Shown piece by piece: positions 351-54,495 of a stretch of DNA of 64,000 nucleotides (its first letter is position 1; every line of letters begins with the position of its first letter). The notes beneath the pieces are model-generated. The model had not been told where the DNA came from and made no database searches. It saw only the letters and a program-made list of their open reading frames with translations. Origin of the DNA: Cephalotus follicularis. Lineage: Eukaryota > Streptophyta > Magnoliopsida > Oxalidales > Cephalotaceae. The translations under genes were made by a program, and so were the position numbers. The stretch covers positions 224,842 to 288,841 of the forward strand of contig BDDD01001959.1 in the NCBI GenBank assembly GCA_001972305.1, in the 5' to 3' direction.

Positions 351-462
351 CAGTCGACTGTTCTTCATCATTGTCGACTACTCAACTATCCAGTCGACTG
401 TTAAGACAAAACAGTCGACTACTCAATTAAAACAGCCGACTGTTCTTGAGAACAGCCGACTG
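351..462. repeat. Palindromic box array, CAGTCGACTG type (6 boxes)
   Basis: Box starts are at 351, 371, 391, 412, 433 and 453, giving intervals of 20, 20, 21, 21 and 20 bp. Boxes are CAGTCGACTG or one- to two-base variants (TTGTCGACTA, CAGCCGACTG). Spacers of about 10 bp are not conserved. The matching array in the other A LTR (10849-10921) has only four boxes. Confidence 0.9.
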
Positions 463-827
463 TCCTGGGCTAAAGTTCTGATATATGTCCTGTTCAGACC
501 TTAATTTGAATTGCTATTGTCTTGCCACTGTTTCTGTATATGCTACTGTTAATTAGTATATACTAATGATTGTTATAAACCCTATTGTTCCATATTTCCA
601 AAGATTGAACAAACTATGTGCTATATGCACAATTTATGATATCAACTCTCATTTTCAAATGAAGGATTTTTGCTAAAAAGAACTACTGATTTTCCTCCTA
701 TGAGGGGTACCTACTGTTTTGTTTCCAAATTGGGAACTACTACTGTATTGATATCATTTTCCTCTTATGAGATGTACGATCACTGAATTGTTATATGTTT
801 CTAAAGAAAACACTTTGATATTGCATA

Positions 828-828
828 T

Positions 829-865
<37 letters not shown>
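828..865. repeat. Compound (TA)n(TG)n microsatellite
   Basis: An uninterrupted TA run passes directly into a TG run inside the LTR A fragment. The other A LTR has only a short 'atattataaatatat' at the matching place, so the expansion is specific to this copy. Confidence 0.9.
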
Positions 866-1872
866 AATATTATTATTGAACTGAAATGATTGAATTGATT
901 GTCTTTGTTATTGCCGATTAGTCGAGTGATGGCAGATGTCACTGGCTAACGGAGGTGGACTTATGTGCCAGGAGTTGGCTAGAGTACACACCCAAACTGT
1001 CTGCATTGCAGATCTTATTTGTTAAACTACCCGCTAACGCTGGTCGTGAATGTTACCTGATCTATCATCTTCAGAGTGTAGGGTGATAGATAGGTGGTGC
1101 GCAGTTTGTGCTAGGAGTTAGCGACATGTGACACCCAAACCACAGTATGAATTGATTGTACCCTTGTGCGGTATTCTTGCATTTGTATTGTCTATGGCCA
1201 CTTAGCATGATTGCTCATATATTGGAATACTTAAATGTTATTTTAATATAAATTGTCATACATGTTGCATGTGTAACGCCGCCAACTCCTGGCCCCACGT
1301 TACACTCCCACTTCGGTCCCTTCTCCAGGCAACCAAGCAAGACAACAGTACAGTGCATTGAGTTACCCAGCCAACTCCGGGCTCCTAGGTCAACCCTGCC
1401 ACTAGACGGCGCTGGCAGTCTCCGCCATGCGACTAGTGGCTCAAGTACAACCACATAAGATTCACAAGGCAAATAGTGAATAGTTACAGTAAACAATACA
1501 GTAATGATCGTTAGATCAACAACATGAAGTTTATTTCAAATTATTTTTGAAAGTCATAAACATTTGAAATATGTATATTCAGTAGTGGAAAATACTTTTA
1601 AACAGTTCAGTAGGTGGAAATTGCTTCCCCAGTTGTTCAAAAATATGTTATTATCAAATATCTATTTTGTACTCAAAATAGTCATTTTCAGTTTCACATA
1701 TGCATTTCTAAATTAACATAGTAATCTAGAAATCATAAACAGTTTATAATCAGTCAATAAACAGGCAGTAAACAGTACATATGCAATGCATACATATGTC
1801 CTAATGCATCCACATAAGAGTTGGGATCATCGTATATCGTTTTAAGCAAGAGAGGCCCAATCAGCAGCTTGG

Positions 1873-2862: not shown

Positions 2863-3012
2863 CAGTCGGTTGTTCTTCCCCAACAGTCGGTTGTCCTCTT
2901 GGCAGTGGTTGCCAGGTGGCTCGACAGCCCTCCAGTCGGCTGGTTCGTCCCACCAGTCGACTGTGCCATTAAACGGTCCACCATTCGGCTGGTCTATTAC
3001 ACCAGTCGACTG
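2863..3012. repeat. Palindromic box array in LTR B (promoter-proximal array)
   Basis: Clear boxes start at 2863, 2884, 2933, 2954, 2982 and 3003, with degenerate ones near 2903 and 2974. Typical interval is 21 bp; one interval is 28. All are CAGTCGGCTG/CAGTCGACTG type. The array lies 156-305 bp inside the LTR start on the minus strand, in the U3 region. Confidence 0.85.
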
Positions 3013-3829: not shown

Positions 3830-6774
3830 TGTAATAACCCGTTTGTTCATATGCATATTTTCGGATTTTTGTTTGATTTTATGTTGGTGTGTTATATTAT
3901 TTTGTCCTATTTTATAATTTTTGGGCTTTTATGTCTTAGGCTAAATAATACCATCTTGGGCTTTTGATAAATTAATGGAATAAGGATTATGGGAAAAATA
4001 AAAATTAATTGTTTTGTATTTTAAATCAGTTTTTAAATTATTAATATGGCAAAAGTGTTTTAAATTGGAAATGAATTAATGTATTATGGCAAATTAGAGT
4101 ATTTTGGGAAATAAATCCCTTTTACTATTTTAAATCCTAATTTTTTCTACTTATTCTCTCCCTCACCCATATGTCCCTCTTCCTCTTCTATTCTCATCAC
4201 GTTTCTTTCTCTCTTTCTCCCTATCTCTACCGAATCTCTGCCCTATTTCTTTATCAAATAAGATGGTGATTGCTTCTTTCCATATCCAGCCGATTTTGCC
4301 TATTAAATTTTCTGTTATGTATGCCTATTGCCATTGTAATATGACATCATTGTTTTCTTGAGTCTGTTAGCCGAATTTACAAGGATTAGGAGCCTGTTTT
4401 GTTCTTCCTTGCTTCATTGAATCAAGTTTGATATCCTCTACTGTTAAGGATTAGCATTGAACTTTGGTTTTAATGATATCAAAATCGTTTGTATATAGGC
4501 TGCTAGTGTGTTTTGTTTTTAATCCCTGCCATGTATGTTTGGTTAATGTTTCTGAGATTGTTAGAAAGTCATGAAGTGTCTGGTAATGATAGAAAACAGG
4601 TTCTGAATATAATAATTGGTGTTTGACAAAAATTTGGTAATGGAATTAAGTATGCAATGAATTGAAATTGCCTCTCTTAAAAGCATGATCACTAATGGCA
4701 TAAATTTCTTGTTTCTTTATGCTTCAAATACAACGGATATATCACATAAGTCCTATCAATATAGCTATGATCATCTGGTATTGTAATATTGGAAGTTTGA
4801 CAGAAAAATTGCATTGAAACTGCTGTGTTTTGCTGTTCTGTCGAGCAGAACAGTCGGCTGTTTCGCCTTGTGTAGTCGTCTGTCTTAAGAAACAGTCGGC
4901 TGGTTGCCTTGCACAGTCGACTGGACCCCTGTCACAGTCAACTGGATTCAACCCAGTTTGAGTAGTCGGCTGCCTATGCAATACAGTCGACTGCCACCAT
5001 TGAACAGTCGACTGGATTTTGATACGGTCGGCTGGTTCTGTCCAGTAAATTTTCTGGTTTCAAGTTTTGTTATCCGTTTGGATTTGTAATAATTTGGAGT
5101 ATGTTTTTGACACTGCTAAATTACTGTTTGATGTTTGGAAGTGCTTTTTGAATCCTTATATGAATGATATTGTATCTTTTAGATTTTTGTGCTTCGAGGG
5201 ACTTTTAAAATTGTCGATCGATTCGTCTATCTTTGTTGTGATCACTTAAGGTACGGATGTTTCGTTCCTTGATACCCTCCTATCGGTTTTACTGTAGTAA
5301 ATAAAAGATAATTTTAGTTTTTCAATAATGTACGGATTTTCTGCTCTTTGGCTATCCGATTTTATTGGAACTATCCCGTTTCACTTTTTATGATTAAAGT
5401 ACGTTCCTCGATACCCTCCTACTGTTTTTATAGTAAAAAGATAGTTTTACTTTATGGATAACGTACCGATTCTTTGTTCTTGGTCTCTTCCTACGGTTTT
5501 AACGAAATGAATTCAAATGTGATTCCTTATGTTTTATGAACTTGGCTATGTTTTATGATTCGATACGATTTTGAAAATAAAAGTCAGTTGACATTTTGCG
5601 AATTTAATGTTCTTAACTTTACGCTATGACATGTTAATAAATATGATACGATCATCTCTTTACAGTGGAAAATAAATGAGTTGATGCTATGTAATGATAT
5701 TGCTATGTCCAGAAAATGTTTAGAAAATGTGTTTACGTTTTTAAATTGTTTTTAGAAATAAAGCAATGTTTTTGAAAAAAAGGATATACATAGAGATATT
5801 TCCTACCTATGGAGGTACCATAGGCATGTCGTAGGCCTGGCACAGGGACATGACACTTCCGTAGCGGTGTGATTTGACTATGGTGTCTCTCTATGTTATG
5901 AATAAGTCCCATGAGGTGGACTTATGTATCCGATATGTGTGATAGAGGCGTATGGGTCGACTCTAGTTATATGTTATGTTAAGGATATGGATTCTGGGGA
6001 TTGATTGTGTAGTGCCGTACACGTCCTTCCGTTTGGCATGTGGGCCTTGCAAACCCCTTGCAATTACGCATATGTGTATGCGCTTTGGATCTCTGAGATG
6101 AGATTATGGAATCGGATAAGTCTCGGTTTGTTTTTCTTTTTTAATATGTTTTGGGATTTTGGACTTGGATTATGTTTTGAAATTGAATAACGCTTTGAAA
6201 ATTGGATATTCGTTTTTGAATTGATTGTATGACTACTTACCTTCGCTTTTGAAAATAATGTTAAATTATTTTATGCATAAGGTATATGATTTTTAAATAT
6301 TCAGGTATTTTCTATCTTTTAAATTATCGTTTTATGTTTTATGATTCTATATCCGTACTGAGGTTTGCTCAGCCGCATTTTTTTTCATGCGGCAGGTATT
6401 CTGGGACAGCATTCGGGAATTGTGTGATGAGCGAGATGTCACCTATGATAAGGACCACTTAGGAGATGGAACCGTTTATGCTTAGTTATTTTATGGTCAT
6501 GTTAGAACCCCTGTTTGAACAATATTATGCCTTTCAGTTTATGACTTTGGATTATGTTTCAGTTTTGGTTTATGTTTAAGTTTTCAGTTTATGAATAAAG
6601 TTTTCAGATTACGTCTTAGATTATAAATGTTATGTTATGACCATCACGTAAATTGAATAAAAGATGAGTTAACATTTTGATAAAAAGAATAAAATTGAGC
6701 CATGTTACATGATAGGTTATGTTTTGTTTCGGACTATGAATCGGTAAGGACTCCCGCCGTTCGGGGGTGTTACA
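3830..6774 (+). mobile_element. Solo LTR, gypsy family C, with TSD ATGTT
   Basis: It starts TGTAATAACCCG and ends GGGGGTGTTACA, and is flanked by ATGTT at 3825-3829 and 6775-6779. No internal region or second LTR is present, so it is a solo LTR of 2945 bp. It shares the 'ggtaccataggcatg' and 'gcctggcac' blocks near 5813-5840 with LTR C' (23060-23095) and element C'' (about 52545-52585, opposite strand). It separates the gag and pol remnants of element A. Confidence 0.92.
4851..5034. repeat. Palindromic box array in solo LTR C (9 boxes)
   Basis: Starts are at 4851, 4873, 4893, 4914, 4935, 4963, 4984, 5005 and 5025, giving intervals 22, 20, 21, 21, 28, 21, 21 and 20. Boxes are CAGTCGACTG/CAGTCGGCTG with variants CAGTCAACTG and TAGTCGTCTG. 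The single 28-bp interval recurs as 29 bp in the LTR of element C''. Confidence 0.92.
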
Positions 6775-9814: not shown

Positions 9815-10016
9815 TGTAATAACCGCAATTTTCAATTAATGTATATTGTGCCATTGATGAATAAAATATACATTACATTGAGATTTTGTTCCATTTGTCA
9901 TGTGTATGGTTACTTTAAATTGTTGAAGGTTGAATTGGATGTATAAGTTAAGGGTTAAATTGAATTAAGTTGCAAGTTGGAGGAGTAAAGAGTAAAGGAT
10001 CAAGAAATTGGCATTA

Positions 10017-10146
10017 CAGTCGACGGGTCTGCCATAAGTGGACAGTTGACTGCCGGTTAAAGACAGTCGACGGGTAGAGCTAAGAAAGGTATCTGTACAT
10101 GGCGTATGAGACAGACCAGTGGCACCAAAGCCTTGGCAGTTGACGA
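10017..10146. repeat. Palindromic boxes in LTR A (promoter-proximal array)
   Basis: Boxes start at 10017, 10043, 10064 and 10137 (CAGTCGACGG, CAGTTGACTG, CAGTCGACGG, CAGTTGACGA). This is the same LTR offset (about 200-330 bp) as the proximal arrays of LTRs B and B'. Confidence 0.8.
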
Positions 10147-10848
10147 CAAGTGTCCTAAACGTGTCATGCAGGGCTGATGTGTGTCACTAGTTATGATAAC
10201 ATGAAGGGTGGTGTCTTGCATGTTCTCTATTCCACCTGCAACATGCAACCTGCAAAAATTCAGAGTAGACAAACCTGTGAAAAGTAAAGAGGAAGGAAAC
10301 ATGCATAAGGGAGACATAAAGGAAAATGTTGGGGATTGAAGTTAATGGAATCTGACGAATTCCTGAGCATTTAAACCTCCTATATCAGCTATTGAGAGCT
10401 TGAACTGAGTACTAGAAACACTGAGAAGAGAGATATTGTGCTGGAGGAATTGTTGGAGCTTGCATGTTGAAGTTGGAGGGTTCAAAGTGTGGTTGAAGCT
10501 TGATTTTTCGTGGTAAGCTTCCCATTATGGATTATTGTTGATGTATAGTTAAACAGTAGTATATAGCCATTGATTTCATTCTATATACCTACTGTCAACA
10601 TGCCTCTATAGCTTAATTTCTGGATTATTGGTGTTGAGTTGAAGTAGGAACATAAAGAAAGGAATCAATCCAATTTGATTCTGGGATAGCGATTGAGGTA
10701 GCGGTTTTGGCATGTTTTTGAAAATATAATATGTATAGCATGTCTGGATATTTCTATATGATTGCATGCTGTTAATTGGGTTGAATTGGACATTGAGCAT
10801 GCATACCCTGTTTCTGTTCATTTCTGCCTACTGATTTTCTGGCCACAA

Positions 10849-10921
10849 CAGTCGACTGTTAAAGACAAACAGTCACCTACTCAATGTATCCAGTCGGCTA
10901 TTCTAAGGGAATAGTCGACTG
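10849..10921. repeat. Palindromic box array in LTR A (distal array, 4 boxes)
   Basis: Starts at 10849, 10870, 10891 and 10912, every interval exactly 21 bp. Boxes are CAGTCGACTG, CAGTCACCTA, CAGTCGGCTA and TAGTCGACTG. Spacers match the last four units of the array at 351-462. Confidence 0.9.
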
Positions 10922-12238
10922 TCAAAGGACATTTTGCTCCTGGAAGGTATTGTTTACGCTTAAATTGTATGTAATTACCCTGGCCTCTACATGGGATGAT
11001 TCTAACATTCAATCCTGTCCATATGTAGTTACATTTCGGAAATTAAACGACTTATGCATTCCTTGTGTGAATTGTGTAAGAATGACTATGGTTATGCTAA
11101 TGATCCTTGTTTGAATCCTTGAACTGCTACTGTCCTTGTTGTTATGCTGCTGTTATAGATATTATATATCTATTAAGTGTTCATAAACACTATTGTTTCA
11201 CTTAATTTCAAGGATTGAACCAACTAAGTGCTATATACACAAATAAGGATTTTAACTATGATTTTCAAAATGGAGACTTACTATCAATGATTTACTGTTT
11301 CCTCAGATGAGAGGTACCACTACTGTTTTGTTCTCCAACCTAGAACCACTATTGTATTGATACCGTTTCCTCCAAAAGAGAGGTACGGTCGTGGAATTGT
11401 TAAATGTTTCTAAAAGAAAACTACTACTATATTGCATATTATAAATATATCCAATATTGTTATTGAATTGATTGTCTATGCTTATTGTCATTAGCCGAGT
11501 GATAGGAGACATCACTGGCTACGGGGGTGGTCCTATGTGCCAGGAGTTGGCTAGAGCTTCCACCAAACTTATCTGTAATACAGATCTTGATTGTTACCTA
11601 CCTGCTAAATGTCGGGAGAATTGTTACCTGATCTATCATCTTCGGAGTGTAGGTGATAGTTAGCTGGTGCGCAGTTGGTGCTAAGAGTTAGCGACATGTG
11701 ACACCCAACCATTGTATTGATTGATTTTTCCCTTGTGCGGTATTCTTGAATTGTACTGTTTATGGCCACCTGGCATGATTGATCGTATATATTGGAATAC
11801 TTAAATATATATGTTATTTTCAAAATAAACTGTCATGCATGTTTACATTTATATATTCTTTCTCATGCATTGTTCCTACTTAGCCAAGTGAGGACAAAGG
11901 CTAACCTCCTACAATTTCAGATTGACGAAGGTAATTGGGCAGGTGCTGCTCAAGCTTCTTGAAGAGAGCTTCTATTTTGATTAAGGATGTTACTTTATGA
12001 TGTCAAGTTGTATTGTAATAAATCATACTCCGTTCATTATGTTTACATCTCAGACATGTAATTTATAACATTGTGTGTTACTTAAAGCACGTAGTATGGG
12101 CTATGTGCGGATAATTTTAATAATCCAGTATTGGAATGCTTCCGCTTTTGTTTAATGGATCTCGGTTAATTGTTGAATGCTGGATTATTATAACTGATAT
12201 CTTTATATATTTTGTTATCTGAAAAACGGGGTTTAACA

Positions 12239-14380: not shown

Positions 14381-14588
14381 TGAGAAGCATAAAAATGTAT
14401 TCGTTTTAATGAGTTAATTATTGTATTTTTAAGCTTGGAACATATTACTTTGGTTGTGTTTAATTGACTTTCAAGTAAGAGGCCAAAGTGATCAAAATAC
14501 AGAAACATGAGTTAAATTGGCGTAAATTGAGAGCAAGACGATCAAAGTGTGAAGAATAGCAAAAATTCTGCAGAAAATAGAGGAAGAC

Positions 14589-14995
14589 ATCAACACCTAT
14601 ATTTAAGCGTCGACGCCTAACCTTTAAGCGCTGACGGTATCAGGTTAAGCATCGACGCTTTGCAACTCGACTGGAACAAATCTATAGAATTATGATTTTT
14701 GTCAACACCAATCAGTTTGGCGTCAACATGCTGGGAATCCAATATTTAGACGTCAATGCCATCATTTGGACGTCAACGCCAAAAGTGAACAAATTGGACA
14801 GTAGCTTACGCGTTAACGCGCAAAGAGGAAGATGTCGTCGCCATCTTTCTTCACAACTTAAGCGTCAACGCCTTACTTAAACGTCGACGCTTAACGCTCA
14901 AGTGTGCCACATAACCCAAGAATATCGTCGACGCCTAGCACATTCAGAGTAGTAAAGCGTCGATGCCAAAGACTTAAGCGTCGACACTTATGACG
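14589..14995. repeat. Palindromic box array, AGCGTCGACGC type, Athila-like LTR
   Basis: Core starts are at 14589, 14609, 14630, 14651, 14701, 14722, 14752, 14772, 14812, 14834, 14864, 14883, 14937, 14969 and 14990. Most intervals are 19-22, 30-32 or 40 bp. The boxes are variants of AGCGTCGACGCT, with the core often GTCAAC or GTTAAC. Spacers are unrelated. The last box ends about 90 bp upstream of the TATA-like site. Confidence 0.88.
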
Positions 14996-15084
14996 TATCA
15001 GGCGCCAAATTTGGAAAGTTTTTACAGTTTTATTTAGTTTGTAATAGGTTAGATTTTATTTCCATTTTTCTGCATTAGTTTGAG

Positions 15085-15093
15085 TATAAAAAG
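15085..15093 (+). promoter_or_regulatory. TATA-like element of Athila-like LTR
   Basis: TATAAAAAG lies about 90 bp downstream of the last box of the array. It would place the transcription start near 15120. This is inferred from motif and position. Confidence 0.55.
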
Positions 15094-15938
15094 AAAGAGA
15101 TGTCAGGTCAAGAGAGAGTCGGATTTTTGGAGAAAGAGCGGCTACTTGAATGAACAATTCTTTGAAGATTATTGTTGCTACCATCGTCATGACCGGCTAA
15201 GTTTCTTAATCCTTGGATGTAGATGAACCCATGTTTTATATATATTTCAATTCTAGTTTTCTGGTTTAATAGTGTGTTTGTAAGACAATATTTTCTTGTT
15301 AATGTATATGGAACATTGATGAGAAGGGATTTTAATGATATAAAATTTGTTTCCTTTACATCATGTGTTGCTTCTTGATTTCTTTATGTGATTGAACCAA
15401 AGACATCCTTTAACCAATCAACCTTTCGAGAGTATCAAGGTTTGACAGGATAGGCTGTACCTAAGCTAAATCATTATTTTCAGTTATATCTGTGATATTA
15501 CAATTAAACCAGAATTTATCCCATGAATTTGAATATATATATATCCATGCGGGGATTATCACATCTAAAGGATTTCATTCTCACATTAATTTCCTATTTA
15601 TATTTTCATATTGGATTAGATATTGAAATTGAATTGTTTAATTTCTCATTGTCGTAGTCAAATCTAAATCAATCCTCTTTTGCAGTTATTTTATTTAGCG
15701 TTTATTATTTCTGTTTAATTGCATACTAGTTTCGTTTTTATAGCATATCACCACATCTCTTCGTGGGAACGATCCCTACTTTCCATTTTCTAATTGTTAG
15801 ATTAGGGTAATTTTGAATCGGTTCAACGACACGAACAACCGTTTTTCCCTTGCATATTTTATTTAGCTTTATTTACTGCTTTGATAATTCATAGTTTTCT
15901 TGTTTTCAATTCTGTTATTTTTTTCAGTGCTTTTAACA

Positions 15939-29836: not shown

Positions 29837-29874
29837 TAAGTGTGTGTCGTAAGCTTTGACCTCTTTTCCTTTAG

Positions 29875-40837: not shown

Positions 40838-40865
40838 GACTCACTGAGTCCGAACTCAGTGAGTC
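40838..40865. repeat. Perfect 12-bp-stem hairpin in copia D LTR
   Basis: GACTCACTGAGT and its exact inverse are separated by CCGA. The same structure with loop CTGA is at 41157-41184 and, in E (first stem base pair only partly conserved), at 59819-59846. Stems are conserved while the loop and flanks vary. Confidence 0.9.
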
Positions 40866-41156
40866 GCTGCCTTTGGCCGCCGTCTTCCGGCGCGGTTCCG
40901 AGCGTGGCTCCTCCAGATTCGGGTTGAGCAAATTTTTTGGAGTCCGTTGGTGTCAACATCGGACGAAACGTGGACTGTCGCTGAGCCGTTTGGTGGCTTG
41001 GCGGCCGCTGACGACGAACGGCGAGTCAACCCCGTGACTCGCCGCCGGCCGTTTTCTGCGTTCCTGGCCGAGTCTTGTCGAGTCTCGTCCACCGGTGCGT
41101 TCGTCGTGGTGTTGGCGTCCATATATGTCAAGACCGGTCAATGGCGAGTTGACCGA

Positions 41157-41184
41157 GACTCACTGAGTCTGAACTCAGTGAGTC
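41157..41184. repeat. Second copy of the hairpin in LTR D
   Basis: Identical 12-bp stem with loop CTGA, in the second unit of the 319-bp duplication. Confidence 0.9.
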
Positions 41185-41721
41185 GCCGCCTCTGGCCGCC
41201 TTGTTCCGGCGCGGTTCCGAGCGTGTCTCCTCTAGATTCGGGTTGAGCAGATTTTTTGGAGTCCGTTGGTGTCAACATCGGACGAAATGTGAACTGTCCA
41301 AAAACCGACGGTGTTACCGGTGATCGGCATTTGCTACTACAAGCGTGTAGCGGCAAAGTGGTGGAACCTCCAACGTTGGTATGATTGCTTCACTCTTACT
41401 TTTATGATTACCGACGTGTGTTCGGTTTATCTTTTTGTGCATGCTTGTTCTTGTTTTTAGTTCGCTTGTTAATTAAACAGAGATCCTAGGCTTTTCTATT
41501 TGGTATTAAGATGTAAGTGTGGACCATGACTTTCAGTCTTGGTGTTTTTGAAAAATTAAAATTATGCACACTTGCGTCCTAGGACCAAATCTACCGGGAA
41601 CCCTTGCCAAGTTTCCAACAGAACGCACCAAGAGCATAAAATGAGAAATGCCCGAGAAAGGAAAAGAAAAGAAGGAAGGGTAAACCGCAAAAGATCCCTT
41701 ACTTAAACTGTCCCCAAAGCT

Positions 41722-41883: not shown

Positions 41884-43429
41884 CCAGGGAAGGGAGTCAG
41901 GGCAGAGAACGCAACACTACGTTTTTCCTGGGGTCTCGGGCAAGGATGCTAACATAACACAACGTAACGCAAGCTAGCCCTGCGCCCCGTCCTAAGACGT
42001 GCCTTCCCAGGAGGAACCATCCTCGGGCAAGTCTTCATTGGATGACAACACTTAACAAAAGGCTAAGCCTCGGATCAACACAAGGGCCTAGGGGAAAATG
42101 CTAAGCGCATGGGACAACCACCCGAGGTCCCACCAACACTCAAACTACACTAAGGAGATTACATCTCACCCCGGCCAGGTACCCAGGGGATCCACCAAGG
42201 CTCACCCACCAAAACATCTCCAGGGACCAAGCTGGTCCGAGGTCGGGAGGTCGGGCAAATCTAAGGAAAACTCCTTACCTCCACATAACGCCTATGGCAT
42301 GCCCGAGGACAACGCCCGGGGACACCACCAGACCTCAGCTTTGGGTCAACCAACCCGAGCTGCAAAGTCAACCTAAAGGTTTGACCACCTTCCCCCGGCA
42401 TCTCAGCAGAGGTGCCACGCACGAAAGGCCCGAGGAGAGACACTGCATTTTCACCAAGGTCGGGGCTGGGAAGACCTGCTCCCCTGCCCAGGGTCCAACA
42501 ACCCCCGAACTTACACATCGTCCCTACACACCCAAACACTTAGTAAAAACAGCGCCAGGGCTGAAAGAACAACGCAAACAACAAGCATATAAAACAAGAA
42601 AAAAAGATTTTTATACACAGTACCGGGCAAACTGCCGAGGACATAGCATCCAAAACTTTAAACACAAGTTTACAAAGAAAGGTTTTACAAGGTATAGATA
42701 TCAATAAAACTATACAAAAACCCCATGAATGTCCCCAAATGCATGAAGGTGTCCAAGGCCTAGGAGCCATCCTAAGGTGCTGCGTCCGACGTCTACCTCT
42801 CTCTATAAGCAGTCCTTAGTGGATCTCAAGAACAATGCTGCCCCACTCCCTCTGCACACAAAACTGAGAGGGGATTAGTCCAACTGACTAGTGAGTAAGA
42901 CCAAAGAGTATCCTATGTGACCCACTTCCACCGGGGTGTAAAGAGTCAAGGAGAACGTGTCCTGCCCCAACTGGGCATAGAACAACCCATCTCCCCTGCT
43001 CAACAAAACAAGGCAGAGGTGAGAGTATACAAGTATATCAATAAAAAGAAAGTCCGAGGAGACATCAAAGCTACCAACTCAATGACTGACCTCAAGGAAA
43101 GAAGATAAACAACAGTTTATAAATTAGAACATGACAAGGATCCAAGGATCAACAAAAGATCAACTCTAAGGATCAACATTTCTCAAGAGGACTACTGGTA
43201 GTGTATCAATCATAAGCACATTCCACACACGCACATGCACAAACTGTAACGCCCGGGATTTTCATATGTTGTAATTTCACAATGTAAGTGTACCTTTATT
43301 GTGGGATTAATAAAGCGATTGACTTTGATGATGTTTTCCAAACTCTAGTAATTTTGATATGAGAACAATGCTAAAGAAATGTTAAGAGTGTAAGTTTAAA
43401 TCAAAACGACATAGTTTTGAGACTAAAGC

Positions 43430-43523
43430 GCCGACGCCTTGAGTGGAGCGTCGACACCTAAGTGATCAAAATGCGAGCTTAATTCAAACACATAAGCATC
43501 GATGCCTGAATGTAAACGTCAAC
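43430..43523. repeat. Palindromic boxes in LTR B' (promoter-proximal)
   Basis: Cores at 43430 (GCCGAC), 43450 (GTCGAC), 43498 (ATCGAT) and 43518 (GTCAAC), with 'AGCG...CGC' arms. It occupies the LTR offset (185-278) where LTR B has CAGTCGACTG boxes. Confidence 0.85.
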
Positions 43524-44310
43524 GCTTTGCATCGTGTTCTGCTTAATATAAACAGCAGAAAGACGTGGCGCACGAAGGAATGTTCAAGCCAGTCTTCAGG
43601 CGCCTCACATGCATTTTAAGACGTGTTAACAATACAGCAAGGCTTCAGGCATGCACCAAAACGTGTCCATAGCCTTTGACATGCAAATGGTTAGTGTCAC
43701 CTCCAACTGCAATGACAGAAAGTCAAGAAGAAAAGAACAAAACCTGGGAAAGGGGAAAAATGGGAAATGGAGCCTGGGAGGTGCATGCAACGAACCAGAG
43801 AAGGGTGAGAGATGTGTTACCAGCATAAAACACCTCCCACTTTGTCCTTTTTCTTGCTTTAACATCTGGGAAAGGAGAAAAGAGGGACACAGTGAGAATT
43901 CATAGAGAGAAAGCTCAAACTCCATTGTTGAGCAAGGGAGAACTTGGAGCTTGGACAACGACTGTGGAGCGGTCCAGGGAGCCTCCAAGTCGTACCTGGG
44001 GACTCAAAGTGACTGATTGGATACTAAAAGGGGTGGACTTTTGGCTTCTAACTTGAGGCCAGAGGTAGGGGAAGCCATAATTGTATTTTGTGTCCAATAA
44101 TTGATGTTTGTTCAGTAATGTTTTGCATAGATTGCATGTCTTGTTGAACTGTTTTTGGTCAATGAAATGTTGCTATGTTATACTGGATGTGTAATGTGAT
44201 AATGCATGCTAGTTTTATGGGATTTATACATGTTGGATTACATGTTACTGTTATGGGAATGTCACTGTTGGCTCATGTCGTGAGGTAGAAGACGACCGCT
44301 GCTTGAAACC

Positions 44311-44497
44311 GTCGACTCCTTGGGTAAGCATCGACGCTTAGTACTGTGAACTGCGTTTTATACGTTGAATGTGTTTTAAACGTCGACGTCTATGGGAGGA
44401 GATATCGACGCCCAGACACTGAAAGCGCTGACGCTATGGGATTGAACGTTGACGCTTAAGGGACATAAGCGTCGACGCCTAAGGAATAAACGCCGAT
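44311..44497. repeat. Palindromic box array in LTR B' (distal)
   Basis: Cores at 44311, 44330, 44364, 44382, 44404, 44427, 44448, 44471 and 44492. Intervals are 19, 34, 18, 22, 23, 21, 23 and 21. LTR offset 1066-1252, equivalent to 1873-2059 in LTR B. Confidence 0.88.
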
Positions 44498-45956
44498 GCT
44501 TTAGAGTCCTGTATGGACAGTTTTTACGGTTTTGACGCCCGATGATCCCGATTCCGCTTAGGATACATTAGAGACTTTGTATGCATTGCATATGTATTGT
44601 TTACTGCCTATCTATTGACTGATTATAAACTGTTGGTGATTTCTAGCTTACTACGATAATCTAGGAATGCATATGAAACTGAAAATAATTGTTTTGAGTA
44701 CGAAAATATATTTTCAAACATACTGGGAAAGCAATTTCCGCTTACTGAAACTGTTTAAAAGTATTTTCTACTACTGAAAATGTATATTTCAAATGTTTAT
44801 GACCTTTGAAAACATTTTGAAATGAACTGCCTGTTGTCGATCTAAACGATCACTACTGTACCGTTTACTGTACTGTTTACTGTGACTATTCACTGTTGCT
44901 CTGTGAATTTACTGTGGTTGTGCTTGAACCGTACTAGTTGCGTGGCGGGGACTACAAACAATGACTAGTGGTAGGGTTGACCTAGGGGCCAGGAGTTGGC
45001 TGGGTAACTCACTGTACTGTACTGTTGCCTTGCTTGGTTGCCTAGGGAAGGGACCGAAGTGGGAGTGTAATGTGGGGCCAGGAGATGGCGGCGTTACACA
45101 TACTGACTGCCTGTTTGTGGTCCCTTTGTGGACTTACTGTACTGCCTGTTGGTCCTTCTCGGACATCACTGTGCCTGTGATGTAGCCCTGGCCAGGTTAC
45201 TACTGTACTGTTGTTGCATACATATATTTTCATATACATGTCCTTACAGATATTTTACTGTACTGCTAAACATATATATATTTTCATATATATATAAACC
45301 GATACTCTACTGTACTGCATCATCTATGCATACATCACATGACATGCATGTAATTTTGGTCTCGAACTACTTTTATGACTTAGCCGAGTGAGGACAAAGG
45401 CTAACCCCCCTACATTACAGATTGATGCGGTGGACCGGTGTTGGACTAGTATGGACGAAGAACAAGCCTTATCTTAGTTGTTGGGGGGTTTTATGTTATT
45501 CCGTGTTGTAATAAGTTGTTTTGTTTTAAGGATACTGATGTATTGTACTGATGGTTATCCATTGTACTTTACTTTTGGGTTAATGTACTGTGATCACGCT
45601 CTGTTTTGTGGGCTTTTAACTATAATAGACTTGTACTGTGTAGCGTGTAGTGTGGGATGCACGTTACGAGTTTTCAGCTTATGAGTTTAATGCTTCCGCA
45701 ACTGATATATTGTTTAAAAGTTTAAATTTTATGATTTTTGCATGAGCTGAATAAAGATGTTAATTGCCTTTACCGCTTTAATGTTGTCTTCTTGGAAACC
45801 GGGGTGTGACACAAATGACTCACACACTTCCATAGCCGGAACCACCTCGGCAGCATACATAGCAACTTTGTTGACGTTTTATCAACGGGGTCATGGGCTA
45901 CAGGATTGGACACATCCCTCATATAGTCAATATAGATACCCACTTCCAGAGCACCG

Positions 45957-47099: not shown

Positions 47100-47302
47100 A
47101 ACTCTACACAATGAGGGGTATTGATGGTAAAATAATCTCTCTAACCTAGAGCTATAAACCACTGCTCTAGTTGAAAATTATCACCTGTAGTGAAGGAGAA
47201 ATCCACTACCCTTCCACATAGAACTTTTCTTGCTGTATACCTTCCCTTGTATCTTGCCCTAGCAGGAGTTTCGCCTCCATATGATGAGTGTTTCTTCGGC
47301 AT
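47100..47302 (-). pseudogene. Start of extra 3' ORF, Sirevirus G
   Basis: The Met at 47302 opens a basic N-terminus, then 'YTARKVLCGRVVDFSF' and 'EQWFIALG', matching 'FNRKILVGKVLDFDF' and 'VEWIRFQGL' of the extra ORF in H. A TAG at 47141-47143 sits where H has a Leu codon. Reading then continues in frame ('RDYFTINTPHCVEF') until the LTR of element I interrupts it. The shared start supports 19466 as the start in H. The function is unknown. Confidence 0.72.
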
Positions 47303-47404
47303 TGTAGATGGTTGAAGGTATCGATTTTGCAGAGAAAAAATTGAAAGAGGGAAAAACTTAGGTTAACGCCAAAATGAATTGGAGTCAACAAAAATGCCCA
47401 AAAC

Positions 47405-47414
47405 AATATATACC
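47405..47414 (-). promoter_or_regulatory. TATA-like site between internal box array and extra ORF (G)
   Basis: The minus strand reads GGTATATATTG, just downstream of the box at 47426 and about 105 bp upstream of the ORF start at 47302. It is a candidate internal promoter, inferred from layout. Confidence 0.45.
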
Positions 47415-47425
47415 AAGTGTTTAGG

Positions 47426-47688
47426 CGTCAACGTCTAACATACGCATTGACGTTAATCGTCCACATTCTTTGTACAAGGGATAATAACGTTAACGCCATT
47501 GTTGACGCAAAAACATAACATTAACGCTAATCTATAGCGTTAACACTAAAAGCATAGAAAGGGAAAAAATATATACGTTAACGATGATATAAAGGGAAAA
47601 AACATATCATTTCCGTTAACGCTTAAAAACAAAGGTTGTATATACGTTAACATGTATATTTACGTTGACGTAAATATATAGCGTTGAC
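47426..47688. repeat. Internal box array upstream of the extra ORF (Sirevirus G)
   Basis: Cores at 47426, 47446, 47489, 47501, 47520, 47539, 47577, 47615, 47646, 47664 and 47683, mostly GTTAAC or GTTGAC with CG arms. Intervals are mainly 18-20, 31, 38 or 43. There is no intact GTCGAC core. Confidence 0.82.
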
Positions 47689-47939
47689 GTGAAAACGCTT
47701 AAAAACATGAAAACTTTGATTTTTCAAATATTTTCAAAAACTCTTTCATTCAATAACTTTAACATATTAAAGCATTGAAAAATATGGCACATTCAAAAAC
47801 AGCAAACAAGATAATGCATACACAATCATTCATTGCATAATCAAACAATTCAATCAACAATCATGTAACACATGAATCATTTCAATCAATTAAAAGCATT
47901 AAACACTTACAATGTGTGTGCTTGGATCATCTTTTTGTC

Positions 47940-48156
47940 CAATTCTTTTTGAAGCACACCTACAAAACAAGAAATTCATCTTTTTGGTACCCAAAAGGTT
48001 TTGGATCCTTTAGAATTAGTAGGAGAAGTTCCTTTTCGAACCCATACCCTTTTGATTTGTGTATTTGTCCTTCTAAACCAACAATTAGAATAAACATGTC
48101 CAAACTTTCCACAATAATTATAATTTATCACATTTTTCTTTCTATCCAACAATTTA
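47940..48156 (-). pseudogene. Nucleocapsid remnant, Sirevirus G
   Basis: After the gag stop, the minus strand reads a knuckle-like 'NYCGKFGHVYSNCWFRR' followed by 'RVWVRKGTSPTNSKGSK', the counterpart of the region before protease in H. One knuckle is seen, versus four in H. Confidence 0.75.
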
Positions 48157-49422
48157 TTAAAATGTTGAGCCTAAACCGGTTTTGTCAAACACACAACATT
48201 GCATTCCTAGAAACTTATCCAGTTTATTCATATCAAGAATGTAATTATTCAATTCAACATTTTCTTTAGCTATATTGTTAGCTATTTTCTTTAACAATTG
48301 ATACTCTCTATTAAGATCATCTAATACATCTATCACTTCATTATATTCATTTTGAAGATCATTATAACTAAAGGATGAAGAACATACCTCATTGTCGTCT
48401 TCCATAGCCATAAAAGCAATGTTGGCAATTTCCTCGTTTTCATCCTCGTCCGAACTTGAATCATCGCTATCGCTCCATGTTGCGATCATAGCTTTCTTTT
48501 TGTCCTTTTTCTTCTTTAATTTAGGACAACCAGGCCTTAGGTGACCAGGTTTGTTGCATTCATAACATATTACCTCTTTTTCATCTTTATCACTTTTGCT
48601 CGAATCTCCTTTCGTTTGGAACTTCTTCAATTGCTTCTTTGAAAAATTCATTTTTTCAAGTAGGATTCTCCTAATATTTTTTGTAAGTAAAGCCATTTCA
48701 TCCTCATCGCTTTCCTCATCTTCTGATGCTTTCAAGGCGATTGTCTTTTTCTTTGGCTCATTCCTTGCTTGGTCACTCATTCTAAGCTCATGTGTCATCA
48801 AGGATCCCAGCAAGTCTTCCAATGGCACAGTTGATAAATCTTTCGCTTCCTCTATTGCCGTGACTTTTGGTTCCCATGATTTTGGTAGACACCTAAGAAT
48901 CTTGCTCACAAGTTCATGGTTAGTGTATAGCTTTCCAAGACCTTTTAGAGCATTAATAATATCATTAAATCTAGCATACATACTAGAGATATTTTCATTC
49001 TCAAGCATAGTAAATAGCTCATAATCATGCACTAATCGGTTTATCTTGGTGTCCTTTACCTGATTGGTTCCTTCGTAGGTAACCATTAACCTATCCCACA
49101 TTTCCTTTGCAAAATCATGGGATGAAACACGATGGAATTCACTAGGACTCAAAGCATAAAATATAACATGTTTTGCATTAACATTCAATTGAAGCAATTT
49201 ATAGTCAGGATCATTAAACTCGTTATTCATTTTCAGAATCCTTTGACAATCAACTAATTTAGTGGGAATTTCAGGACCATTTGTAATTATGTTCCACAAT
49301 TGATAATCCAAAGATTGAATGAAAATGGTCATACGAGTTTTCCAATAACTATAATTGTTTCCATAAAAACTAGGAGGCTTGTTGATAGATTGCCTCACAT
49401 TATCATTAAAGAAGGTTTCCAT
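48157..49422 (-). CDS. Sirevirus gag, longest open frame in the window (element G)
   Basis: The frame is open for 421 residues from 'METFFNDNVRQSINKPPSF' to a TAA. The N-terminus has 'GNNYSYWKTRMTIFIQSLD', typical of Sirevirus capsid. The middle has 'KVTAIEEAKDLSTVPLEDLL' and 'GSLMTHELRM'. A CCHC knuckle 'CYECNKPGHLRPGC' lies near residue 285. Then come the Sirevirus block 'AMIATWSDSDDSSSDE' and a C-terminal coiled coil. Full Sirevirus Gag extends further: the stop falls before the knuckle region at 47940-48156. It would form particles, but as the element lacks pol it could act only with help from another copy, if expressed at all. Confidence 0.88.
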   Translation of the reverse strand: METFFNDNVRQSINKPPSFYGNNYSYWKTRMTIFIQSLDYQLWNIITNGPEIPTKLVDCQRILKMNNEFNDPDYKLLQLNVNAKHVIFYALSPSEFHRVSSHDFAKEMWDRLMVTYEGTNQVKDTKINRLVHDYELFTMLENENISSMYARFNDIINALKGLGKLYTNHELVSKILRCLPKSWEPKVTAIEEAKDLSTVPLEDLLGSLMTHELRMSDQARNEPKKKTIALKASEDEESDEDEMALLTKNIRRILLEKMNFSKKQLKKFQTKGDSSKSDKDEKEVICYECNKPGHLRPGCPKLKKKKDKKKAMIATWSDSDDSSSDEDENEEIANIAFMAMEDDNEVCSSSFSYNDLQNEYNEVIDVLDDLNREYQLLKKIANNIAKENVELNNYILDMNKLDKFLGMQCCVFDKTGLGSTF

Positions 49423-49463
49423 AGGATCAAACTAATTTCAATTAAGATTAACAATTAGAACCA

Positions 49464-49474: not shown

Positions 49475-50051
49475 ATTGAAGGGTCCACAAAGGCAACCAA
49501 GAGGGGGGGTGAATTGGTTATGCGAAAAACAACCACCCTTTTTAAACTTAACCAATGCAAACAAAAAATTATCCAAGATACTCTAAACAATTATAAACAA
49601 TAAAATATCTTGCAAATAATTAAAAGAGTAAGGGATAGAAAGTTGCAAACAAGTTTATAGTTGTTCAGCAAAATGTGCCTACGTCCACTCTCCCAAGCTG
49701 TGCTTGAGGTTCCACTACAATGTAATCCCCCGATCATAAACAGTAACTCTGGATTTTTACAAGTTCAATCCTAACTTGAATTTTTGCGAGCTAAATTCTA
49801 ACTCAGATTTTCAAAGCTAAATCCTAATTTTTTAGTAAGGTACTAACGACCTTGGGTTTACAACAAGATTTTCTGAGTGTTTGAAGTGTTTAAGAACCTC
49901 TCAAAAGGTTGGATAACTAAAACAATATTTGCTCAAGTGATCTCAGAAAAGAACTTTGTAAACTATAGCTCAAAAACTCTTCTTTCTTGCTCTAGAATAG
50001 CTTGGATATTGCTTGTGTGAATGATTGATGATTTCTTCATTGGTTGACCCT

Positions 50052-50061
50052 CTATTTATAG
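50052..50061 (-). promoter_or_regulatory. TATA-like element of Sirevirus G LTR
   Basis: The minus strand reads CTATAAATAG. The nearest upstream box starts at 50190, about 130 bp away. Confidence 0.6.
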
Positions 50062-50189
50062 CCTTCAGATGGATATAGTTGTTGCTAGAGTTCTGGGAAT
50101 CATCAAAGAGCCGTTGGAGATATTCAAGGAAAGGATCACCATTTTAGTACCTTCAAATTTTGCAGATTTTGTGTTAAGCTGTCATTAGC

Positions 50190-50640
50190 GTTAACGTGTA
50201 CGCACGGCGTTGACGTCTATCTCCTTATGCGTTGACTCCTATGGTTCTTTGCATTGATACTCCAAGCTTTTCTTCAGCTTCAACTCTATTCAAGTTGACG
50301 CACATCCATAGCGTTGACACTAATATCATTTGAGTTGACTCCATAATATCTTCACGTTAACGTCAAAACTCACTATCCCAAATGTGCATCATTTGCGTTG
50401 ACGTCTTGATATGACGTTCATGTCTTGATATGACATTAACTTATATAGTCAAGGTGTTGACTCCACTTGTTTTCTGGTTTGACGTTCAAGTCTCCATCAC
50501 CTTTTGACATTGACGTCTTCCTCAAGGTGTTTATGTAAATCATAAGTTTTCCAGCACGTTGACGAGAATCATCCTTCAAAGCCCAGAACATGTACTTATT
50601 CCCAGCACATTGACGCCTAAAGCATAGTCGTTGACGCCAA
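50190..50640. repeat. Palindromic box array in Sirevirus G LTR
   Basis: Cores include 50190, 50209, 50231, 50253, 50294, 50313, 50334, 50356, 50397, 50416, 50435, 50456 and 50509, continuing to about 50640. Intervals are 19-22 with gaps of 41. Cores are GTTGAC, GTTAAC or ATTGAC; none is GTCGAC. Outer CG dinucleotides often persist. Confidence 0.88.
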
Positions 50641-50771
50641 TAGTTCTGATATGCAAGTTTTAGCTTTCTTACAATGCAAGTTAACTTGGTTAAAGATTCC
50701 TTCACATCAAGCAAACACATTAGGTGTTTTGTAATCATCAAAATAAGGATTGTAACATATAAATGTCAACA

Positions 50772-50944
50772 CTTTTGATTTTTGAGATCATTGAAAGAGG
50801 AGATATTAAAGTAGAATGAGTACCAGGCGAAGACAACACAACAGACATTTTTACCAAAGGCTTATCGAATAGTGTCTTTGACAAACATCGTTCAGGGATG
50901 CGTGTGAGACACATGGGTAACTGGCTTTAGTACTAGTGAGAGAT
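50772..50944 (+). pseudogene. Copia RNase H end and polypurine tract (element F)
   Basis: It reads 'FEIIERGDIKVE', a stop, then 'VPGEDNTTDIFTKGL' and 'VRHMGNWL', the usual end of copia pol. A purine tract AGTGAGAGAT at 50935-50944 precedes the LTR start. The rest of F lies on the other side of Sirevirus G and is not found in this window. Confidence 0.82.
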
Positions 50945-51751
50945 TGTTAGGGATAAGTCCTGCAATCCAAGTTATCTTGTAATAACAATAGTTTGTAATA
51001 AACATTACAGTTCAATAAAGGCTGTTCTTCAATATAATATTCAATGGCAACAATTCATTAATATATGTTTATAAATATATGTATAATCAATGAATGTCCA
51101 TGGAAAAAAGTTTGATGAATAAGACCATGAGATCATGTTGTGAGACTTAGCACATCGGGAAGCTTTATTCTAGAACCATCCTAGTCATAGGATAACATAC
51201 TTGGACATATGTTATCTGGATAGACTAACGCATTGTATGCTAGCTCGTTGCAGAGGTTGACTTCTCTCACAAGTCATCATGTAGTGACTATATGGCATAC
51301 ACGTGGGTGCTAGTTATTTTATTAGTTCGTTGAAGTGGCTCGCTGTAAGAAGTTCTGTATGGAGTTTTACTTACATGTCAGACAGGCTTCTTGTATTACA
51401 GTAGTGTGAGTGGTCCTTAGACCTGAGCCACCACTAGATGTCTTGTGTATAAGATATTATGCTTTGATAATAATTAATTACATCTTCAAACCATGAGGAG
51501 TATACAGGTATTAGTTGGGTATGGTAGATTATGCATGGAGATATATGAGTGAGCAAGATGGAATCTACTGCTCCCAGTAAAGGGAATTTATGCTTAGGGT
51601 TATTAGCTATAAGATTTCTTGGTCATGATGAAAAGGTATTGGAATATTAATTCCAATATCAGAGATCAAAAAATTAGAAAGGGTTTCTAATTTGATCATG
51701 ATATCTAATTAACTGTAATACCCTTTTAATTAATGAACAATTAGGGCCTGA

Positions 51752-54495
51752 TGTAACACCCCCGATCTGTGGGAGTCGCCACAGTGCATAATACCAAAAC
51801 TAAGCAGATCATATCATATTAAAAGGTTCATCTTTATTAAAAACATGATGGTTTAAAGCATAACCATAACATATACAAACTGATCATAACTGAAACATAT
51901 CCAAAAATCCAAAAGTCATAAACTGAAATAACACATTGTTTTATTATCGCGTTCCACTATGACCACATAACATAAAAGGATCAGCTACTAGTCGATCCTC
52001 AGACATATGGGAGTCACTCTCATCACACATTGCCCCTTTGCTCCCGATAACCTGCCGCATGGAAACAAAAACGCGACTGAGCAAACCTCAGTACGGATGT
52101 AGAATATAAAACAGTAAATAATATTTTAAAGCAGGAAGATTTCCAAAAAGTACATTTAAAACTGAAATCTTAGCAATAAAATAATTTAAACATGTTTTAT
52201 AAATGCCCAAGGCAAAACATATAAACCATAAAGTGTACCTTTCCAAAACATAGGATCAATAAACTTTCAAAACGTAAAGCATATCTTTTCCAAAACATAG
52301 GTTCCATAAACTGAGCACCAAATCCCATAACATATCAGAAACACATAATAGCAAGGGGTTCGCGACACCCACATTGCCAAATAGAATTGCAGTGTACGGT
52401 ACTACACATACAATTCCCATATCATAACATATCCCAAAACATATAACTAGGATCGATCGATACGCCTCTATCACAAATCCAATCTACGGATATCACAGAG
52501 AGACTCCGTAAAAAAATCTCACCGTTACGGAAAGTGTCATGCCCCCGTGCCAGGCTCACAGTATGCCTATGGTACCCCCATAGGTGGTTATAAAAGCTCA
52601 GTATTTCACCATTTCCAAAAATATGATTTCATCAAATTATTTTAAAACAAAAATGTTTCCCAAACCATTACCATAAATCGTATTCAAACGATATAGTTTG
52701 ATATACTTTCATAATCAAATCATTTAATTTCACAATAAGGAGATGATTGCATATCATTTCGTAAACATATCGTAACTGATTTCATAAAGTAAGAATATTT
52801 ACTTCATAAAATATCAAATGACTTTATTTCCAAAAACACAAACATACAGAATTTATAAACCACAGTAAGCATATTCATAACCGAGTGATACTAAAACCAG
52901 AATCTGTATTATAATCTCAAACAGAACTGAAACAGTAAGAATTTGTCAAGGAACGAAGAATTTCGTACCTTATGCGCTTGTAAAGTACTTATGAATAGAC
53001 AATTTTAAACGGAATCCACTTGAAACTCAACAATCTATAAAGACATTCAAAATCATATGTATAAGAGTTTAAAACACATTAGAAGCCTTAAATAGACTCA
53101 CAAAAATGTTTGAAAAAGATTCGGATCGATTCGGGGGTCAAACGAATCAAAACGGGTGAAAACAGCACATTCCAGGGCATACCAGTCGCCTGGAACAGGG
53201 ATCCAGTCGACTGGAGAGTCTGGGAAGTCGACCGGATCATGTGACAGTCGACTACGCAACCCAAAAATGCAGGTAGTCGACTGTGTTCTTCAATCCAGTC
53301 GACTACCCAACCATTCCAGTCGACTGTCCACTCAGACAGTCGGCTGTTTTGGGCGACATAACATTTGGAAATCCGACGATTTGTTACTGAAAATGGTTCA
53401 AATGATTTTTAAATTAAACTAGAGACATATGGACATAAACATATGATTATATATGACTTGTAGGTGACTTATAAACACAAATTTGACAAAGAAACGACCA
53501 TTCAATTATTTAACTTGCAAGAGGAAGTTTGAGGACATTGCATGAACATGTCCAGATTTTGTGTTTTATCAAACACAGATGTTATAAACTTAGTTTGTGA
53601 CATATATAGGTGCATAAAACGTGCAGATAACATCACTAATACAATAGCAACATGTTTGGGCAAGAATCAAAGACTCCAAGATACCAAGAGCACAAAAACT
53701 CAAAGTAAGCCATTGAAACAAAACTATAATTAAAGGAGATGAATTTACTGACCTATAGTGATGTTAAGGAACCCAGAAAACAGTAGGAATAACACTACAA
53801 CGGTATCAAATTCGGCTGTATACAAAACAGGGACCAAAGAATGCAAAAATAAGAACATGCTAAGGCATGCACAACAAACTAAGTGAATTTAACCCAAAAG
53901 GAACAACTAAGGATTGAGATTACCTCTTGAACTTTGAAGAAACAATTACACAGCAGATTTTTGCACAATAATGGGGCAGATTCGGATGTGACATGAAAGG
54001 ATGTTGGAGGTATCATATAAAATGGCCATGACACTCAAAAATGGGGAAAGGGGGAGACAAGATTTGACAAAAGTGGGAAGGAATGCTAGCTTTTCTGGAT
54101 TATGTAATGAGAAAGGAGAGATTCTAGCATGTGGAATAGTTGGTATGATGAAGGAATCCTGGAAAGAAGAAGAAATGTAGGAAGAAAGTGGGAGAAAAAG
54201 ATTAAAATAGGAAAAGGAAATAAAAGAATTGATCATAAAAAGAATTAATAATAAAAAGAATTTGGAATTATAAAAATTAAAAGAATAATAATTGTTTTCA
54301 ATAAAATAAGTTTTTGATTAAAATAAGAATTTATAAAACCCAACATAGCATAACATACCCAAATATCGGACCGGTATCATACCGCACAATTCACATAAAC
54401 CCGATCATAGGGCAACCGGACTTTTAAAATTAAACAAAATTACAAGCCCGTAAACACATATAAAATCCGTAAAATATATTTACGAACCCGTAAAG
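51752..54495 (-). mobile_element. 3' LTR of C'' (long form, U3 edge missing at N)
   Basis: It holds 1188 bp (about 52172-53359) that the other LTR lacks, including the box array. It ends at the N, 29 bp short of the LTR edge seen at 57653. Confidence 0.9.
53183..53346. repeat. Palindromic box array in C'' LTR (8 boxes)
   Basis: Starts at 53183, 53204, 53225, 53245, 53274, 53296, 53317 and 53337, giving intervals 21, 21, 20, 29, 22, 21 and 20. Boxes are CAGTCGACTG type. The 29-bp step matches the 28-bp step in solo LTR C. Confidence 0.92.

Follow-up and report, generated by a model that had tools for sequence, protein, structure and literature searches.

Why should retrotransposons of separate lineages carry dense arrays of one and the same short palindrome in their long terminal repeats (LTRs)? 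The question is raised by a 64,000-nucleotide stretch of the Cephalotus follicularis genome (assembly GCA_001972305.1, contig BDDD01001959.1, positions 224,842 to 288,841), hereafter the window, a nest of plant LTR retrotransposons to which all results below refer and from whose first letter all positions are counted. The original prediction placed here about 17 arrays of palindromic boxes with a GTCGAC core, in elements of both Ty3/gypsy and Ty1/copia type. Within these arrays the boxes are alike, the spacers between them are near random, and neighbouring boxes mostly keep to the helical pitch of DNA. From these features of the sequence we consider it probable, though well short of certain, that the arrays are cis-regulatory platforms acting at the DNA level, on which a dimeric factor would be bound mostly on one face of the helix.

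The window contains 42 copies of GTCGAC, compared with 5.96 ± 2.44 expected from dinucleotide shuffles; the largest count in 100 such shuffles was 12, so that 42 was reached in none, and no other 6-mer of the window has a higher z score (42 vs 5.9 expected). Thirty-nine of the copies fall within the 17 predicted intervals, which total 3,938 bp, and 40 lie inside LTR intervals (30.7 kb of the 64 kb) whose borders are approximate, having been placed by eye from repeats, primer-binding-site-like sequences, and pairwise similarity. The predicted placement in LTRs is therefore right for nearly all cores, and the density outside is not comparable: just two copies occur there, at 19616, within an array beside an env-like open reading frame (ORF), and at 23836. 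Two whole arrays (19582–19715 and 47426–47688) nevertheless stand beside env-like frames and not in LTRs. An exact core occurs at least once in 15 of the 17 intervals; exact search finds none in the other two, 47426–47688 and 50190–50640. Of the 30 clusters returned by a scan for clustered 6-mers that was blind to the motif, 13 coincide with arrays, one for each of 13 arrays; the remaining four arrays, at 10017–10146, 10849–10921, 15939–16034, and 43430–43523, were missed. The arrays have a CpG observed/expected ratio of 1.21 compared with 0.68 for the window, in part because the box itself contains CpG. Decay of a GCCGGC box is ruled out as the origin of the core, GCCGGC standing at 1.3 times and GTCGAC at 7.1 times expectation.

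The hosts of the arrays belong to both superfamilies. Gypsy A has the pol domains PF17917, PF17921, and PF24626, a 3′ LTR from about 9815, and a gypsy gag piece (PF03732) upstream, and gypsy G has gag PF03732 and protease PF08284. The Sirevirus-like element Sire5 is a copia element by its RVT_2 and rve domains, with G-rich tracts resembling polypurine tracts seen by eye at its LTR edge, and Sire9 carries copia gag PF14223; the placement of both among the Sireviruses is provisional. The label Athila is that of the original prediction and, like Tekay/Del, is provisional. Local alignment of nine LTRs, with five shuffles per pair, divides them into five groups: A, B2, and Bf; D and G; Sire5 and Sire9; an Athila-like LTR; and the copia-type LTR E6. 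The sole score between groups that clearly exceeds its shuffles, Athila-like against Sire5 (36 vs 25), is that of a box-bearing stretch. At the sensitivity of these alignments there is little similarity between the five groups outside the boxes, which upholds the claim that gypsy and copia LTRs with little or no other sequence in common share one core. Given five LTR groups and near-random spacers, the copying of a single insertion family does not account for the arrays.

Three classes of box are present: CAGTCGACTG in gypsies A, Bf, D, and G; AAGCGTCGACGCYT in B2, the Athila-like LTR, and Sire5; and GCGTYRACGC in E6 and Sire9. The two forms originally described around GTCGAC both occur exactly in the window, CAGTCGACTG ten times and GCGTCGACGC three times, but the E6 array mainly carries GTTGAC when read in the element sense (7 of 13 boxes, with GTCGAC in 2). 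With dedicated templates, 15 of the 22 boxes in the two Sire9 arrays have a GTCAAC or GTTAAC core; these are the commonest cores of Sire9, as GTCGAC and GTCAGC are of Sire5, and many boxes of both elements are imperfect palindromes. The long arm AAAGCGTCGACGCTTT that had been attributed to the boxes exists as a consensus only: exact AGCGTCGACGCT is absent from the window, and the longest exact palindromes around GTCGAC measure 14 bp (at 10851 and 53206). Single-base variants of the box resemble the DRE (RCCGAC), W-box (TTGAC), and TGACG cores, which are too short to identify the factor. Box type is also not constant among homologous LTRs. The 3′ parts of Bf and B2 are 82% alike over 581 bp and their 5′ parts align poorly; each has two arrays, at matching places, and the leader-side arrays stop 41 and 43 bp from the block that the two share. 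Yet the boxes of Bf are of the CAGTCGACTG class and those of B2 of the GCGTCGACGC class, which leaves two possibilities, a concerted replacement of the boxes or a rebuilding of the arrays.

The spacing of the boxes bears most directly on what reads them. A box was any 10-mer agreeing with CAGTCGACTG or GCGTCGACGC at no fewer than 8 positions, whatever its distance from the next. The analysis covered 16 arrays, with the second Sire5 LTR excluded; 16908–17279 and 26889–27260 belong to the two LTRs of one element, 96.7% alike, and are therefore not independent. Among the 69 neighbour spacings of at most 80 bp, 43 measure 19–23 bp and 24 of those exactly 21 bp, whereas random placement of equal numbers of boxes gives the 19–23-bp class a mean share of 0.137 and a maximum of 0.296 in 5,000 runs. 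At a period of 10.5 bp the Rayleigh R reaches 0.706, where simulations did not exceed 0.411, and the lag profile peaks at 21, 31, 41–42, 48–53, 62, 70–71, and 83 bp. The 26 spacings outside 17–25 bp still lean toward multiples of 10.5 bp (R 0.46, p 0.004; phasing p values here and below assume independent spacings, which related arrays do not provide). When gypsies A, B, D, and G are left out, the all-pairs analysis has its best period at 10.5 bp (R 0.66, compared with at most 0.466 in 3,000 null runs). By group, spacings of 19–23 bp make up 24/33 in A, Bf, D, and G, 5/8 in B2, 4/11 in the Athila-like LTR, 4/5 in Sire5, 5/11 in E6, and 1/1 in Sire9. A palindrome repeated on the helical pitch is what selection by a dimeric DNA-binding protein with contacts between neighbours would be expected to leave, and the phasing, a feature that did not figure in the original prediction, favors a protein that reads DNA.

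Comparison within and between arrays separates boxes from spacers. Across 14 arrays, those of Sire9 excluded, identity is 0.67–0.90 for boxes, a range inflated by the choice of boxes with templates, and 0.19–0.34 for spacers, which that choice does not affect and which straddles the random value of 0.26; the spacers are unconserved, as had been proposed. LTRs D and G offer a second view, being identical at 1,421 of 2,386 gap-free columns outside the array, that is, 40% different. Eight of the nine D boxes nonetheless align with the eight of G, at spacings of 20, 21, 21, 28, 21, 21, and 20 bp in D and 20, 21, 22, 29, 20, 21, and 21 bp in G, and the two agree at 67 of 80 positions in boxes and at 37 of 82 in spacers. 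Gaps take up 4 of the 153 alignment columns of the array and 534 of the 2,920 outside it; gap openings are not rarer in the array (4 per 150 bp vs 65 per 2,715 bp elsewhere).

The places of the arrays point to transcription, since boxes precede TATA-like sites in four LTRs and lie 5′ of env-like frames. In the Athila-like LTR, Sire5, E6, and Sire9 the last upstream box stands about 85–135 bp before a TATA-like site; in Sire5 (site at 16815) and Sire9 (site at 50054) the distances are about 100 and 130 bp. In both Sirevirus-like elements an env-like frame has a further array on its 5′ side; the frame of Sire9, read by eye, opens with ATG and gave no Pfam match. On the mechanism that we propose, each palindromic site could bind a dimeric, sequence-specific protein, and sites lying mostly two helical turns apart, with three to five turns in some cases, would set most dimers on one face, where they might cooperate. 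Arrays upstream of TATA (in the Sireviruses, the Athila-like LTR, copia E6, and the U3 side of gypsies A and B) would then be enhancers of the LTR promoter, those beside env-like frames could be enhancers of a second, internal promoter, and those farther downstream in the LTRs of A, B, D, and G may be downstream enhancers or anti-silencing sites. Protein binding, the dimeric state, activation, the transcription start sites, and the relatedness of the factors acting on gypsy and copia elements are what we infer from the layout. It is also conceivable, and we put it forward as a tentative extension that is itself rather doubtful, that one host dimer or a small family of dimers reads the phased GTCGAC-type arrays of Ty1/copia and Ty3/gypsy alike, the elements having converged on a phased enhancer or traded it and having switched box type together with a change of factor; the three box classes could mean several factors and not the one common trans-acting factor originally proposed.

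Several observations weigh against a one-faced DNA platform. Spacings of 15, 26, 28, 28, 29, 48, 49, and 50 bp are off pitch, and the lag peaks at 48–50 and 70–71 bp accompany the 28-bp steps. One such step, of 28 bp in D and 29 bp in G, is conserved between these LTRs, so that something besides phase, or common descent, may be keeping the spacing, and our confidence in the platform is lowered accordingly. The best period is 10.3 bp over all pairs and 10.05 bp for A, B, D, and G alone. The Athila-like LTR shows weak phasing when all pairs are counted (R 0.33; R 0.55 and p 0.036 for neighbours), and B2 taken by itself falls short of significance (p 0.25). When Sire9 is searched with GTYRAC templates, 13 of its 26 spacings fall at 19–23 bp, many steps are of 19 bp, and two are of 38 bp. 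With dozens of TATA-like matches per strand, the promoter positions are guesses, and E6 has two boxes on the downstream side of its TATA-like site at 29877. RNA of six of eight array pieces folds better than shuffles. Finally, TRF reports tandem periods in seven arrays, 21 bp in three of CAGTCGACTG type and 19–22 bp in four others, and the step may thus have begun as a duplication.

This last point leads to the rival that survives best, in which a box-bearing stretch was copied between elements by template switching or gene conversion and then multiplied by tandem duplication of about 21 bp, the common core reflecting descent. The TRF periods suit it, as does the identity of spacers between boxes 19–23 bp apart, which at 0.38, the better of two anchorings, slightly exceeds the 0.30 of random pieces and suggests that a trace of duplication remains. 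The 17-mer TAAGCGTCGACGCCTAA occurs in both B2 and the Athila-like LTR, which also have in common, just after their arrays and not as part of the boxes, a stretch of 20 bases with two differences (44514–44533, in B2 TGGACAGTTTTTACGGTTTT, and 15012–15031); a pattern made from the two versions matches these two places in the window and no third. Some box pairs of different lineages also align, spacer included, over about 40–55 bp. With boxes masked, the B2/Athila-like comparison is the best of 81 between lineages (score 30, where shuffles reach at most 25, or 22 under wider masking). Yet the mean of those 81 scores is 16.3 against 14.9 when shuffled, and only B2/Athila-like (30) and Athila-like/Sire5 (25) beat the shuffled maximum of 22. 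Spacer sequence is near random, spacings of about 31 bp do not correspond to whole numbers of 21-bp units, and transfer alone leaves unexplained why boxes stay while spacers go. We regard such exchange as unlikely, although the masked similarity of these two pairs keeps it a live rival for the class of B2, Athila-like, and Sire5 boxes.

A DNA-level reader might instead serve to counter silencing. By analogy with VANC acting on VANDAL elements, a demethylating factor encoded by the element or the host could read the arrays, which would explain the density of motifs, the retention of CpG (observed/expected 1.21), and the change of box type at the same places of the homologous Bf and B2, much as VANC targets differ among related transposable elements (PMC5735166, as far as its accessible text goes). 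VANC motifs are, however, described there as one-oriented in tandem repeats, and the boxes here are palindromes with near-random spacers; a Pfam scan of 28 distinct ORF pieces of the window, with no search beyond Pfam, found no VANC-like gene. We think this role improbable.

More improbable still is a signal read in RNA, whereby boxes paired in transcripts would form hairpins for packaging or dimerization, or precursors of small RNAs targeted by the host, an idea already put forward for the palindrome-rich LTRs of maize Sireviruses. Folding z scores of −8.2 (G), −5.0 (A5), −4.5 (Athila-like), −4.4 (D), −3.6 (E6), and −2.3 (B2) would agree with it, as would the small-RNA hotspots described at such palindromes in the accessible parts of PMC5311732 and PMC10760457; the Sire5 and Sire9 pieces (z −0.8 and −1.4) are not significant. 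Better folding than shuffles is expected of mutually complementary boxes whatever their function, and the helical pitch has no evident meaning for single-stranded pairing. Chance or composition, by which CpG-bearing words would gather in GC-richer parts of LTRs, might draw on the shortness of the core and on the 17 clusters of other words in the 6-mer scan, but it is already refuted by the 0/100 shuffles that reached the GTCGAC count and by spacing simulations incompatible with random placement.

Returning to the proposed platforms for a dimeric factor, the closest precedent lies in the Sireviruses. Bousios et al. (2010; PMC2829016, accessible in part) list 13 repeated motifs, all palindromic, one of which, CGGTCGACCG in Vitis, has a GTCGAC core; they call the motifs specific to Sireviruses, absent from classic retrotransposons, and of unknown use, with a CGG-CCG signature to which one exception, Tnd-1, is listed. 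As in Sire5 and Sire9, many palindromic boxes stand upstream of TATA in the LTR and 5′ of env, and the placement in the upper LTR and in CpG islands is likewise similar to the arrays described here; the accessible text yielded no statement on box spacing. Against the at least eight palindromic boxes per element of that system, Sire5 has seven in its 3′ LTR and three at env, whereas the Sire9 counts are 17 and 11 when GTYRAC templates are used and fall to 5 and 2 under the GTCGAC templates. Both elements have the cluster upstream of the LTR TATA, at TATA-like sites of a kind that is common, and further boxes 5′ of the env-like gene, and the boxes of neither show the CGG-CCG core signature. Unlike the published motifs, as far as that text describes them, the boxes here occur also in gypsy and Athila-like LTRs: A and G have gypsy domains, the B2 LTR is homologous to that of A, and the D LTR to that of G, so these hosts are not Sireviruses.

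In maize Sireviruses, palindrome clusters lie in the cis-regulatory part of the LTR and are tied to small RNAs (PMC5311732, PMC10760457, each accessible in part). According to the same partial texts, their core is CACCGGAC...GTCCGGTG, unlike GTCGAC, the palindrome is found also in structured regions of maize Helitrons, and sharing with Ty3/gypsy or phasing is not mentioned. The target arrays of VANC are comparable in being dense, short, noncoding, element-specific, and different between related elements (PMC5735166, PMC10398659, in their accessible parts); in VANDAL, by contrast, the factor is known and encoded by the element, and the motif is one-oriented in tandem repeats. The arrays here have palindromic boxes and near-random spacers, though weak TRF periods of 19–22 bp occur in seven of them. 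Among open papers, as far as their text was accessible, arrays of this kind appear only in PMC2829016, PMC5311732, and PMC10760457, and a search of the open literature with the box letters gave no retrotransposon title among the matches listed. The novelty claimed for the arrays is thus partial: Sirevirus arrays of this layout are already published (PMC2829016, as accessible), one of them, in Vitis, with the same core, and the gypsy copies, the phasing, and the box switch may be new. Because the same core recurs in Ty3/gypsy LTRs, mostly at whole-turn spacing and with free spacers, DNA enhancer, RNA hairpin, and silencing target become distinguishable by tests of phase, and the arrays offer bait DNA for finding the factor. 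If a single factor does serve gypsy and copia elements alike, unrelated retrotransposons would have one control switch in common for their bursts.

Table 1. Box arrays of the window, with host element, strand, and distinguishing features.
Array	Position	Strand	Remarks
LTR fragment A5 (relative of gypsy A LTR)	351–462	+	Spacings 40, 21, 21, 20
LTR fragment Bf, leader side	1873–2059	−	CAGTCGACTG / CAGCCGACTG type
LTR fragment Bf, U3 side	2863–3012	−	LTR start TGTAACGCCCGGG at ~3168
LTR D, nine boxes	4851–5034	+	Spacings 22, 20, 21, 21, 28, 21, 21, 20
Gypsy A 3′ LTR, U3 side	10017–10146	+	LTR ~9815–12235
Gypsy A 3′ LTR, leader side	10849–10921	+	Homologous in place to 351–462
Athila-like LTR (~14383–16200), upstream of TATA-like site 15085	14589–14995	+	GCGTCGACGC type
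Athila-like LTR, second array, downstream of TATA-like site 15085	15939–16034	+	
Sire5 (Sirevirus-like) 3′ LTR, upstream of TATA-like site 16815	16908–17279	−	
Sire5, non-LTR, at env-like ORF 18825–19670 (PF20167)	19582–19715	−	
Sire5 5′ LTR	26889–27260	−	Counterpart of 16908–17279
Copia-type LTR E6 (~29058–30840)	29730–30291	−	GCGTTGACGC type; spacings ~21 and ~31
LTR B2 (43246–45811), U3 side	43430–43523	+	GCGTCGACGC type
LTR B2, leader side	44311–44497	+	Place as Bf array 1873–2059, different box type
Sire9, non-LTR, directly 5′ of env-like frame	47426–47688	−	GTTAAC/GTCAAC cores, GTCGAC 0
Sire9 LTR (~49481–50772), upstream of TATA-like site 50054	50190–50640	−	GTCAAC/GTTAAC cores
Gypsy G LTR (51754–54494), eight boxes	53183–53346	−	Register shared with 8/9 D boxes

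Some of the elements in Table 1 are rearranged. The LTRs of gypsy G are 97–98% alike, and 1,188 bp including the array are missing from one of them (52172–53359 against 56069–57624); because the related LTR D has this region, the 5′ LTR of G seems to have lost it. Sire9 (47300–49431) has its gag almost directly before the env-side array and the env-like frame, the pol region being missing, and another LTR, judged by eye, seems to start at about 47099 inside that frame. ARAGORN calls a tRNA-Arg at 1946–2039, across a box array of Bf, most likely a false call produced by the pairing of palindromes.

The relatives listed for two window ORFs (at least 120 each) are 49–73% identical, and nearly all of those with a name come from flowering plants. 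Contigs L002–L008, from GTDB assemblies filed as bacterial, encode gypsy reverse transcriptases 51–68% identical to that of a window element, probably as eukaryotic contamination. None of ten gypsy-like GTDB loci (L002–L011) has a GTCGAC array, a weak negative, as the loci span 3.1–7.5 kb and may be without LTRs. In viral_contigs, paired CAGTCGACTG has one match, in a contig of 67% GC (L001) with boxes 36 bp apart and no link made to a retroelement; paired GCGTCGACGC has no match there, and protein-based scans of the same collection found no relatives.

Two copia-type LTRs, at 38606–41620 and 57941–60282, had been called free of boxes. They indeed have no GTCGAC arrays, with 0 and 1 cores respectively, yet GAGTC/GACTC clusters are present instead, at matching places in these two copies (40501–41250 and 59476–59925), with several pairs exactly 10 bp apart. 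The clusters are possibly another phased box family. The first of these LTRs, which contains the GAGTC cluster, also has a 320-bp tandem duplication, 95% alike, at 40657–41298.

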